64,000 nt of DNA from Deltaproteobacteria bacterium (GTDB lineage: Bacteria > Desulfobacterota > Desulfobulbia > Desulfobulbales > Desulfurivibrionaceae). Under the pieces are notes generated by a model, which saw only the letters and a program-made list of their open reading frames with translations, was not told the origin of the DNA and ran no database searches. Below are positions 47,120 through 64,000 of this stretch, piece by piece (positions within the stretch are counted from its first letter, which is position 1; each line of letters starts with the position of its first letter). The stretch spans positions 1-64,000 of the forward strand of contig JAJZRJ010000007.1 in NCBI GenBank assembly GCA_021802775.1, given 5' to 3'. The position numbers were made by a program, and so were the translations under genes.

Positions 47120-47273
47120 TTAGCAGCCCGTTGAAAAACGGGCTGTTGGCGCCACAGGGACGTGGCGCCGAATTTTGCCGGCCCGAAAGGGCCAAGAAAT
47201 TCGCGAGGTTGGCCAAAGCGCCTTTGGCCAACCGACAGTTGAAAAAGCCAGGGATGACTTTTTCAACATCCGG
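47120..47273 (+). repeat. Multi-hairpin repeat element, copy 1
   Basis: Five consecutive stem-loops fill the interval. H1 is CAGCCCGTT/AACGGGCTG (47124-47145). H2 is GGCGCCAC/GTGGCGCC (47148-47169). H3 is CGAATTT/AAATTCG with an inner GGCCC/GGGCC (47169-47203). H4 is GGTTGGCCAAAG/CTTTGGCCAACC (47207-47233). H5 is GTTGAAAAAG/CTTTTTCAAC (47238-47267). The last 36 nt (47238-47273) match the reverse complement of 63537-63572 at 32 positions. It ends about 75 bp before the histidine kinase start. Confidence 0.88.
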
Positions 47274-47347
47274 TTAAAGAAACGGTGGATGGAGCGGTTC
47301 GTCGGCCCATCCAGCGGAGAGACGAGCGCATACTCCAGAGGAAGGAA

Positions 47348-52139: not shown

Positions 52140-52152
52140 AGCGGTACATAAC

Positions 52153-52438
52153 CACCCAGGTGCTCCTAGCCGAGCAGAAAGAGGGAACCCGGTGCGAATC
52201 CGGGACGGGCCCGCCGCTGTAACCGGGGACGACTGCCGCACAAGGCCACTGTCGATAAGGCAAGGGCGATGATTTCCGGCAAGATCAAGGAAGGCAAGGT
52301 TTTTCGCCGCAGGAATACGTGAAGGTATTTCGAGGACGAAGAACCGAAGCCTGACGCCGAGATTGCCAAAATCAGCCCCTTGACGACGGGAAGGCGCGGC
52401 AGGAGGACGAGCCGGAAGTCAGAAGACCTGCCTGGGAT
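52153..52438 (+). ncRNA. Cobalamin riboswitch 1, with large peripheral insertion
   Basis: P1 arms CCCAGG (52155-52160) and CCTGGG (52431-52436) close the element. Inside, AGGGAACCCGGTGCGAATCC, GCCCGCCGCTGTAA, GCCACTG (about 52245-52251), GGGAAGG (52388-52394) and the B12 box AGTCAGAAGACCTGCC (52417-52432) follow in canonical order. The 136 nt between GCCACTG and GGGAAGG are far more than the usual few tens, so one peripheral helix is greatly enlarged. It controls the Gate-domain gene through the terminator at 52499-52537. Confidence 0.9.
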
Positions 52439-52498
52439 GGATGCGCTGCCGCCGTGGACGGGTGACATGTGCTTTATGATCATGTGGATAAACCAGGG

Positions 52499-53516: not shown

Positions 53517-53588
53517 TGTGGCAGGCCCTGCTCTTTCGGGAGGGATAAAAAAATCTGCGGGGTCGGGAGAGCCGATCTGAAAAAAGTC

Positions 53589-53778
53589 GCAAACCGGTGC
53601 CCGTAAGGGCTTGAAAGGGAATCCCGTGTAACTCGGGAGCGGTCCCGCCACTGTCATTCCTGCCTGTTTTCGCTGTTGGGGAGCAGGCACGGCTGGCGCA
53701 AAACGCCACTGTTTCCGGGGGTTGGAAATGGGAAGGCGCGCGAGCCATGGGGAAGAGCCAGGAGACCTGCCTGTTTGC
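53589..53778 (+). ncRNA. Cobalamin riboswitch 2
   Basis: P1 arms GCAAAC (53589-53594) and GTTTGC (53773-53778) enclose ACCGGTGCCCGTAAGGGC, GGGAATCCCGTGTAACTCGG, GGTCCCGCCACTGT, GCCACTG (about 53705-53711), GGGAAGG and the textbook B12 box AGCCAGGAGACCTGCC (53756-53771). No terminator with a U-run is seen before cbiK (53928). A long-range pairing of GATGGG with CCCATC around 53835-53900 could act on the ribosome site, so translational control is possible. Confidence 0.92.
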
Positions 53779-53927
53779 TGTGTGCCACTCGGTCATTCGA
53801 GGCTCCTTCGCGGAAAGGAGAGGCAACGGGCTTGATGGGGGCGAGGTCTTTTCCGTCACCGGCACCGTGCCTTCTTCTCCACGCGGCGGAGCACCCATCA
53901 ACCATCAATAAGGAGAAGAGGCAGCGT

Positions 53928-61960: not shown

Positions 61961-62769
61961 GTGGACAGGGAAATGATCGCGGGGAAAAGCAAAAAACGGT
62001 GCACAGCCCCGAAATAAGCGGTCACCGGGCGACGGCCCGTGATCGCTTGGCCGGACAGTTTTATGTGATCGGGGTGGGACCGGGCGACCCGGAACTCATG
62101 ACCCTCAAGGCGGCGCGGCTCCTGGAGCGCTGTCCGGTATGGTTCGCGCCCAAGGCGCATCAGGATGGCGACAGCACCGCCCTGGCCATTCTGGCCGGCG
62201 CAGTTGCCACTGCGGGTAAGGAGATCATGGAGCTTCATTTCCCCATGAAGAAGATCCGTATGGGCGAGCCCCCCGACCCTGAGGTGGAGGCGGCCTGGCG
62301 GCTGGCGGCCAAGGCCATCGCCGCCAAACTGGCGCAGGGGATCGACGTCGCCTTTCCCACCCTGGGCGACCCGGCCATCTACAGCACCGGCTTTTACGTC
62401 TGCGACACATTGCTCAAATACGCGCCCGAGGCCAGAATCACCGTGATCCCCGGCGTCTCCTCCATCGGCGCCTCGGCGGCCGCGGTGGGCCAGCCGCTCT
62501 GCCTGGGCGACGACCGTTTGGTGGTGGTTCCGGCCACCTTCGAGAACGGCCGCCTGCGCGAGACCATCGAGCAGTTCGATACCGTGGTGCTGATGAAGGT
62601 GCACCGGGTGATGCCCAAGGTGGTGGCGCTGCTCACCGAACTCGATCTGCTGGACAAGGCGGTGCTGGTGGAGCGGTCGAGCCATGCCAATGAGCGGGTG
62701 CGGCGGGACCTGGCCGCGGCGTCCCGCGATGAACTCCATTATTTTTCCACCGTGATCATCCGGAAATGA
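61957..62769 (+). CDS. cbiL: Cobalt-precorrin-2 C20-methyltransferase
   Basis: The 270-residue protein has a tetrapyrrole methylase fold (FYVIGVGPGDPELMTLKAARLL, AFPTLGDPAIYSTGFYV, VIPGVSSIGASAAAVG, VVLMKVHRVMPKVVALL). CbiL methylates C20 of cobalt-factor II. It has about 33 N-terminal residues more than typical members (SGQGNDRGEKQKTVHSPEIS), of unknown use. ATG overlaps the cbiET stop (ATGA); an internal start near residue 34 is possible but lacks a ribosome site. Confidence 0.92.
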   Translation: MSGQGNDRGEKQKTVHSPEISGHRATARDRLAGQFYVIGVGPGDPELMTLKAARLLERCPVWFAPKAHQDGDSTALAILAGAVATAGKEIMELHFPMKKIRMGEPPDPEVEAAWRLAAKAIAAKLAQGIDVAFPTLGDPAIYSTGFYVCDTLLKYAPEARITVIPGVSSIGASAAAVGQPLCLGDDRLVVVPATFENGRLRETIEQFDTVVLMKVHRVMPKVVALLTELDLLDKAVLVERSSHANERVRRDLAAASRDELHYFSTVIIRK

Positions 62770-63536
62770 TGCGCACATCCGCCAACCCCATTTATTTTGT
62801 CGGCGCCGGGCCCGGTGATCCGGAACTGATCACCGTCCGGGGCCAGCGGCTGCTGGCCGCGGCCGACCTGGTGGTCTATGCCGGCAGCCTGGTGCCCAGG
62901 GCGCTGGTGGAGGGGCTCCGCGCCGAACTGCACGATTCGGCCAGCCTCCATCTTGCCGAGATCATCGACCTGATGGCCGGCGCCTGGCGGCAGGGGAAGA
63001 CGGTGGTGCGGCTCCATACCGGCGACCCCAGCATCTACGGGGCGATCAAGGAGCAGATGGCGGCCCTCGACGCGCAGCGGATTCCCTGCCAGGTGGTGCC
63101 GGGGGTGAGTTCCGCCACCGCCACCGCCGCCGCCCTCCAGGCCGAACTCACCCTGCCCGAGGTGTCGCAGACCGTGATCATCACCCGCCGGGCCGGCCGC
63201 ACCCCGGTGCCGGAGGGGCAGGATTTGACAAGCCTCGCCAGCCACCAGGCCACCATGCTCATCCTGCTCAGCGTCGGCATGATCGAAGAGGTGGTGGCGG
63301 AACTCCGTGATGGCGGCTACCCGGCCGAGACGCCGGTGGCGGTGGTGGAGAAGGTGAGCTGGCCGGAAGAGCGGATCATCCGCGCCACCCTGGCCACCAT
63401 TGCCAGGGAGGTGCAGGCGGCCGGGATCAACAAGACCGCGATCATCGCGGTGGGCCGCGTCTTTGCCGAGCTGCCGCCCGAGGCCTTTTCCAAGCTCTAT
63501 GACAAGGGATTCAGCCATGGCTGCCGCCAGGTCTAG
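62766..63536 (+). CDS. cbiF: Cobalt-precorrin-4 C11-methyltransferase
   Basis: The 256-residue protein has IYFVGAGPGDPELITVRGQRLLAAADLVVYAGSLVP in parts, LHTGDPSIYGAIKEQM, PGVSSATATAAALQAELTLPE, VIITRRAGRTPVPEGQ and ATMLILLSVG, all CbiF/CobM features. It methylates C11. The ATG overlaps cbiL (ATGA). The stop codon TAG coincides with the first bases of the multi-hairpin element. Confidence 0.95.
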   Translation: MMRTSANPIYFVGAGPGDPELITVRGQRLLAAADLVVYAGSLVPRALVEGLRAELHDSASLHLAEIIDLMAGAWRQGKTVVRLHTGDPSIYGAIKEQMAALDAQRIPCQVVPGVSSATATAAALQAELTLPEVSQTVIITRRAGRTPVPEGQDLTSLASHQATMLILLSVGMIEEVVAELRDGGYPAETPVAVVEKVSWPEERIIRATLATIAREVQAAGINKTAIIAVGRVFAELPPEAFSKLYDKGFSHGCRQV

Positions 63537-63700
63537 CAGGATGTTGAAAAACCCATCCGTGGCTTTTTCAACTTACGGAATCGCGGAAATGAATTCCGCG
63601 ATTCCTCACGATACCGGCAAGTTGCCACTTGCCGATATCGGCGATCCGTCCATGGATCGCGCGCAGGCTGCCGAAAAACGAGTTTTTCAACAGCCTGCTA
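63534..63700 (+). repeat. Multi-hairpin repeat element, copy 2, with 18-bp terminal inverted repeats
   Basis: The left end TAGCAGGATGTTGAAAAA (63534-63551) and the reverse complement of the right end (TAGCAGGCTGTTGAAAAA, from 63683-63700) differ at one position. Between them are five stem-loops: GTTGAAAAA/TTTTTCAAC (63543-63572), a 12-bp stem 63577-63605, GATA..GGCAAG/CTTGCC..TATC (63610-63639), GCGATCC/GGATCGC (63641-63660) and AGGCTG..GAAAAA/TTTTTC..CAGCCT (63665-63696). Order and ends mirror copy 1 in reverse orientation. It lies between cbiF and cbiG and is open in the cbiG frame. Confidence 0.92.
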
Positions 63701-64000
63701 AGATCAGGCGTATCGCCTGTCTGGCGGTAACCGAGGGCGGCCGGCAATTGGCGGCCCGCATTGCCGCTGGCCTGGGCGGCACCGTGATTCCCCAGCGCAC
63801 TGGGCTGGGGGAGCTGATGCCCGCGCTCTGGCAGGAATACGATGGCCTCATCTGTGTGATGGCCGCCGGCATCGTGGTGCGGTGCATCGCTCCGCTGGTC
63901 ACGGACAAGCAGAGCGACCCGGCGGTGGTGGTGGTGGATGAGGCGGGGAATTTCGCGGTGAGCCTGCTTTCCGGCCATCTTGGCGGCGCCAACGACCTGG
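63652..64000 (+). CDS. cbiG: CbiG, cobalt-precorrin-5A hydrolase, 5' part; start inside the repeat element
   Basis: The frame reads RIACLAVTEGGRQLAARIAA, YDGLICVMAAGIVVRCIAPLV, DKQSDPAVVVVDEAGNFAVSL and LSGHLGGAND before leaving the window, the CbiG N-terminal signature. CbiG opens the ring delta-lactone and releases C20 as acetaldehyde. No start codon lies between the repeat element and RIACL. The nearest ATG (63652, MDRAQAAEK) is inside the element, and ATG 63541 would read through nearly all of it. Either the gene now uses an element-borne start or it has lost its native one. The 3' end is outside the window. Confidence 0.82.
   Translation, partial: MDRAQAAEKRVFQQPAKIRRIACLAVTEGGRQLAARIAAGLGGTVIPQRTGLGELMPALWQEYDGLICVMAAGIVVRCIAPLVTDKQSDPAVVVVDEAGNFAVSLLSGHLGGANDL

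Follow-up and report, generated by a model that had tools for sequence, protein, structure and literature searches.

MITEs, short non-autonomous transposons, are commonly regarded as deletion remnants of insertion sequences (IS) that carry no conserved payload. The elements described here share with IS1182-like IS and their MITEs the terminal repeats CAGCCCGTTGAAAAAC, a 4-bp NTAN duplication of the target site and, in the full-length relatives, a transposase with the domains DUF772 and DDE_Tnp_1; they differ in that this transposase scores under the IS1182 cut-off and in that the MITE interior is an array of five hairpins. The REP/REPIN sequences of RAYT transposases and the BIMEs are likewise multi-copy intergenic palindromes that rely on a transposase acting in trans, but they are mobilized as single strands by HUH transposases and produce no target duplication; the present elements duplicate 4 bp at the target and have a DDE transposase as partner. 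Correia, ERIC and BOX elements are also small structured mobile repeats affecting neighboring transcripts, but they have other ends and occur in other taxa; to our knowledge, neither CANGGANG loops nor the turnover of stem sequences are known as features of these elements. Closer in taxonomic terms is the Chunjie MITE of Geobacter uraniireducens (Chen et al. 2008, summarized in PMC10969869), which is short, has many intergenic copies, is found inserted in an operon, and resembles the present elements as the MITE of a related bacterium with conserved ends and duplications. The comparison with Chunjie was made by description, and the summary of it (PMC10969869) describes no conserved array with compensatory change. 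The multicopy sequences of Geobacter metallireducens (PMC2700814) were considered as possible instances of the same element and set aside, since the figure legends of that report contain no description of it.

On the side of RNA, the apical hexaloop CANGGANG corresponds to the consensus bound by CsrA and RsmE (PMC4894983, PMC6849547), and RsmW is an RsmA-binding RNA of Pseudomonas aeruginosa (PMC4950607). RsmW, RsmY/RsmZ and the CsrB-type RNAs, which sequester CsrA or RsmA (Rfam clan CL00106; PMC4950607), consist, as our elements do, of successive hairpins with GGA loops, and one of our elements aligns to RsmW full length. The differences are that the MITE is mobile and multi-copy, that a promoter of its own was not found and that it has two GGA hairpins, and homology with these RNAs is not claimed. 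No MITE bearing CsrA sites came up in a search of the literature.

The window analyzed here, a stretch of 64,000 nucleotides, contains two such elements, called copy 1 and copy 2, the features of which are collected in table 1. Their ends are CAG[G/C]CYGTTGAAAAAC in inverted orientation, and the elements are non-coding and 150-161 bp in length. The sequence GTTGAAAAA is present six times in the window, on every occasion inside one of the two elements, against an expectation of 0.27 and with none of 100 shuffles reaching six occurrences. More than 30 copies in total were found in the host genome (G000; 2.58 Mb in 72 contigs), about 23 of which belong to the type of copy 1 (type A) and are 90-99% alike, while about 13 belong to the type of copy 2 (type B) and are more diverged (73-81% alike). 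Type A copies often lie at contig ends, indicating that the assembly has been broken by them. Exact 4-bp NTAN duplications flank many copies (for example ATAG/ATAG, CTAT/CTAT and CTAA/CTAA); the duplications of both window copies are imperfect, with one mismatch each. The site of copy 2 is empty at the orthologous position in a sister species of the same genus (G001); there the counterpart of the copy 1 region falls short by 150 bp and contains no recognizable element. That both repeats of the window are MITEs is near certain. Of note, the 4-bp flanking sequences at the two ends of an element frequently disagree in one or two bases (for example TTAG/TTAA at L129 and TTAG/ATAA at L007), a situation that could reflect decay, or else recombination between copies.

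Table 1. Features of the two five-hairpin elements and of the genes at copy 2, in coordinates of the window
Feature	Position	Strand	Basis
Copy 1, left target-site flank, TTAG	47120..47123	.	sequence; exact 4-bp NTAN duplications at other copies
Copy 1, MITE type A, 150 bp, five hairpins	47124..47273	+	model R2, 155 bits
Copy 1 hairpin 1, contains left terminal repeat CAGCCCGTTGAAAAAC	47124..47145	+	
Copy 1 hairpin 2, CANGGANG loop	47148..47169	+	
CAGGGACG in copy 1 hairpin 2, fits CsrA/RsmA hexaloop consensus CANGGANG	47155..47162	+	PMC4894983, PMC6849547
Copy 1 hairpin 3	47170..47202	+	
Copy 1 hairpin 4	47207..47233	+	
Copy 1 hairpin 5, overlapping right terminal repeat	47238..47267	+	
CAGGGATG, second CANGGANG loop of copy 1	47249..47256	+	
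Copy 1, right target-site flank, TTAA, one mismatch vs TTAG	47274..47277	.	sequence
Tetrapyrrole methylase gene, cobalamin pathway; end within copy 2 target site	62766..63536	+	
cbiG start; in frame through copy 2	63517..63999	+	
Copy 2, target-site flank, CTAG; provides TAG stop of upstream methyltransferase gene	63533..63536	.	
Copy 2, MITE type B, 161 bp, five hairpins	63537..63697	-	model R1, 177 bits
Copy 2 hairpin 5, loop CACGGATG at 63554-63561	63543..63572	-	
Copy 2 hairpin 4	63577..63605	-	
Copy 2 hairpin 3	63609..63640	-	
Copy 2 hairpin 2, loop CATGGACG at 63647-63654	63641..63660	-	
Copy 2 hairpin 1, contains terminal repeat CAGGCTGTTGAAAAAC	63664..63697	-	
Copy 2, target-site flank, CTAA, one mismatch vs CTAG	63698..63701	.	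sequence

Full-length IS of about 1.5 kb with the same ends were found in the genomes G036 (many copies), G028 (six copies) and G011, some of them with exact 4-bp duplications (CTAT, ATAG, CTAA). The best NCBIfam model for their transposase, which has the two domains mentioned above, is IS1182, with a score of 151.8 bits that lies below the cut-off of 270 for IS1182 proper. In the host genome, all that is left of an IS of this kind is a remnant at L017, which shares the end. The five-hairpin array is absent from the IS itself, and the interior of the MITE is not derived from it. The shared ends, together with the 4-bp duplication and the presence of the IS partner, indicate that a DDE transposase acting in trans mobilizes the MITEs. 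An element derived from REP/RAYT or from IS200/IS605 was also considered, but finds no support in view of the 4-bp duplications and the DDE partner. A second type of MITE having the same ends and a single long snapback hairpin was seen in genome G040 (L137:1501-1640 and L155:1501-1640), which contains five-hairpin arrays too.

The likeness between the two copies had been pointed out in an earlier note on this DNA, and is clearly present: one end is 91% alike over the 35 bases compared, and each copy contains five successive hairpins and folds with far lower energy than its dinucleotide-shuffled versions (z -7.8 and -11.0). The same note considered the inner stems to be unrelated, which is too strong, for the hairpins of the two copies correspond one to one and in order, loops, linker and stem bases are conserved, and covariance models built from type B (R1) and type A (R2) find the copy of the other type with considerable scores (copy 1 at 81.7 bits with the type B model, copy 2 at 92.5 bits with the type A model); the inner stems are thus homologous and have been turned over. 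Its central suggestion, namely that structure is preserved rather than stem sequence, agrees with the compensatory change now seen over many further copies. The note had called for a covariance scan of related genomes, naming the lack of further copies, or copies with random interiors, as contrary outcomes; further copies were found, with compensatory changes and turnover of the inner stems, and neither contrary outcome was observed.

Among 96 distinct relatives of type A, 92.9% of the pair cells are paired, a value inflated by the fitting of the alignments to the structure, and compensatory change is found at 57 of the 57 base pairs. The compensated cells in these relatives amount to 545, as compared with 142 after shuffling and 67-120 when the partners are slid. 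Type B shows 160 compensated cells versus 52 in the control, and ten matches from beyond the order, in four other families of the phylum, show 114 versus 33. Plain MAFFT alignments of the seeds agree with these results (compensated pairs 23/55 and 17/57) and, together with the slid controls, indicate that the compensation goes beyond the inflation due to fitting. It is very likely, we conclude, that the array is an RNA element selected for its secondary structure. Wobble pairs can be used as a cue to the strand; when those present in at least five sequences are counted, G-T exceeds A-C by 7 to 0 in type B and by 6 to 3 in type A, an asymmetry that is only suggestive.

The distribution of the elements is broad. 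The terminal repeat is present in 51 of 58 relatives, with as many as about 250 sites in a single genome, and five-hairpin arrays were detected in 22 (model R1) and 19 (model R2) of 146 relatives, each model recovering both types. A search with R2 in 395 genomes drawn from the phylum found arrays in 15, where the elements are present in many copies per genome; four families from beyond the order are represented (f29, f35, f72 and f100), and together with those within the order (f1, f2, f10, f13 and f4) they bring the carriers to at least nine families of the phylum. A MITE lineage thus keeps a five-hairpin RNA amid ongoing turnover of its stems in at least nine bacterial families. When 84,980 species genomes were scanned with the hairpin 1 pattern of type A, only related MAGs and Desulfurivibrio sp. 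AMeS2 were found among the matches listed, and a plasmid collection contained no match to copy 1 and none to a distant relative. Nearly all copies are intergenic, as judged with a crude gene caller, and lie in divergent, convergent and co-directional gene contexts; with respect to co-directional neighbors, 46 are in sense and 32 in antisense orientation, a bias that is not significant (p 0.14). A scan for promoters and terminators around copy 1 called none. Longer copies of about 233 bp occur in genome G035 (for example L285:136-368 and L302:2511-2744), having about 80 extra bases apparently located in hairpin 3, as if the array had received a payload.

Two of the five hairpins, 2 and 5, contain CANGGANG in their loops. 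In both seed alignments the letters CA.GGA.G are invariant in hairpin 2 and exactly the two N positions are variable, and the same holds for hairpin 5 in type A. Comparison of four lineages revealed no fixed change in the 12 columns of the loop core, the fixed steps per column being 0.39 in other stem columns and 1.05 in other unpaired columns, and in this respect the terminal repeat resembles the loop core; the rate of private changes is 0.062 in the loop core versus 0.064 in the stems. In the distant families the motif of hairpin 2 is kept almost always and the GGA of hairpin 5 in most cases, never on the opposite strand once the elements are oriented, a pattern to be read with the bias of covariance models that include the loop letters toward copies retaining them. 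Judging from these sequence features, CsrA binding at hairpins 2 and 5 is likely. The comparison of copy 1 with 4227 Rfam families gave RsmW (RF02809) as the best match (34.6 bits, E 1.7e-4), spanning hairpins 2-5 with both GGA loops in register, and another element (L150) reached 38.1 bits with the same family. Because these scores are under the gathering threshold of 52 and copy 2 has no match to RsmW, membership in this family is not claimed. The same-ended snapback MITE at L137, taken as negative control, did not match RsmW.

The host genome contains an intact CsrA and, adjoining it, an intact FliW. In the 56 genomes checked for the protein, all 19 carriers of the array have CsrA and none of the nine genomes without CsrA has the array, an association (Fisher p 0.02) that is confounded by kinship. 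Two of these nine genomes, G036 and G050, are rich in same-ended MITEs that have neither the array nor the motif; such array-less MITEs of high copy number are seen at L158-L165 in G036 and at L145, L151 and L157 in G050. If the proposed binding is true, the array would represent a CsrA-binding RNA in bacteria where FliW is thought to hold CsrA in check.

The level at which selection acts can be deduced from the fate of individual pairs. Orthologous insertions, defined as elements at the same site in two species with flanks aligned up to the element, show 6 compensated versus 34 broken pairs, and somewhat deeper paralogues, pairs of which are not independent, show 446 compensated versus 223 broken. 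Private changes within the lineages of type A include 15 compensated and 67 broken pairs, and the consensus sequences of these lineages differ from each other by 5-7 compensated and 1-4 broken pairs. Resident copies therefore lose pairs like neutral DNA, whereas the transposing lineages retain them, and selection appears to work on the transposing lineage rather than on individual resident copies. It can thus be localized to the lineage of the mobile element instead of the host locus. The decay of resident copies is evidence against palindromes that correct themselves, as it is against a function kept up site by site. One exception to this decay was noted in the orthologous pair L406/L412 (with which L038 is also listed), in which hairpin 4 of the shared insertion has undergone a compensated change.

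The reading that we favor, with somewhat better than even confidence, is that of a MITE lineage carrying a conserved five-hairpin RNA, in which hairpins 2 and 5 form hexaloops of the CsrA/RsmA type with putative CsrA binding. The RNA of the element would derive from read-through of neighboring transcripts, in the strand that reads 5'-CAG[GC]CYGTTGAAAAAC, and would bind CsrA at the two hairpins. Since pairing is kept in active lineages and lost in resident copies, the structure would be favored during transposition or in the survival of the insertion, and not for any benefit that a given copy brings to the host locally. The likeliest advantage, which is also the least certain step and speculative, is that a compact RNA bound by CsrA might render a new insertion less harmful to the recipient transcript, or that CsrA might be titrated in favor of the element. 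Three uses of the arrays had been proposed in the earlier note, among which that of protein-binding array is now best supported by the loop consensus of CsrA/RsmA targets, at the level of sequence. The use as a substrate for single-stranded (HUH-type) transposition is not supported, as the ends, the 4-bp duplication and the partner all suggest an IS1182-like DDE transposase, and neither is that of RNA stabilizer maintained at each locus, in view of the loss of pairs in orthologous resident copies. If the two hairpins do bind CsrA, mobile DNA would supply new sites under CsrA control, and jumping DNA may scatter regulator-binding sites across genomes of the sulfate-reducer type. A wider version of the proposal, which we advance tentatively and consider rather doubtful, envisages a phylum-wide transposon lineage with a putative CsrA-binding payload RNA, which would constitute a mobile and distributed CsrA sponge of tens to hundreds of sites and rewire the network, selection having preserved the interaction and not the interior sequence during the spread of the element.

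Part of these results would be predicted also by an ordinary MITE, in which the palindromic array, as a folded DNA strand or a bent duplex, brings the ends together for the transposase, while the GGA loops have no role of their own. The loss of structure in resident copies and its retention in transposing lineages are what a requirement of transposition predicts, and the terminal repeats are included in hairpins 1 and 5. However, in the same-ended MITEs of G036, G046 and G050 the interior is no more stably folded than shuffled sequence, those of G036 and G050 having multiplied in this condition (interior z about 0 to -1.3), and the IS lacks the array; the hairpin array is no general need of the transposase. 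Such an explanation, moreover, does not account for CANGGANG loops that are fixed despite stem turnover, and we consider it unlikely.

A service rendered to the host at each site, with the array maintained as RNA stabilizer, processing site, terminator or regulator, would be in line with the location of nearly every copy between genes, with the stability of the hairpins and with the A and T runs at hairpin 5, which resemble a two-way terminator. Such a service is nonetheless quite improbable, given that resident copies common to two species decay, that all gene contexts occur with no clear bias in orientation and that the scan called no terminator. Even less credit can be given to a purely mutational origin of the pattern, in which replication slippage or template switching in the hairpins would copy one arm onto the other in the absence of selection. 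Quasi-palindrome correction is a known mutational process, and the long perfect stems with many double changes are of the kind it would produce, but it should act also on resident orthologues, the altered pairs of which are mostly broken (34, against 6 compensated). The private changes by class (G-T 30, A-C 25, other breaks 42) also speak against it, and the conservation of the loops is left unexplained, so that we regard this possibility as very remote.

Copy 2 sits where the methylase gene of the cobalamin pathway and cbiG overlap, and the stop codon of the methylase gene is provided by its target duplication. Together with its duplication it amounts to 165 bp, equivalent to 55 extra codons that are in frame at the start of cbiG; the N-terminal extension of CbiG is consequently an antisense reading of the MITE, the hairpin strand of copy 2 being antisense to both genes. 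At the gathering threshold, Rfam recognizes two cobalamin riboswitches and nothing else in the whole window. These riboswitches (52142-52449 and 53578-53788) are on the same strand, 1.4 kb apart, and lie 5' of cobalamin genes.
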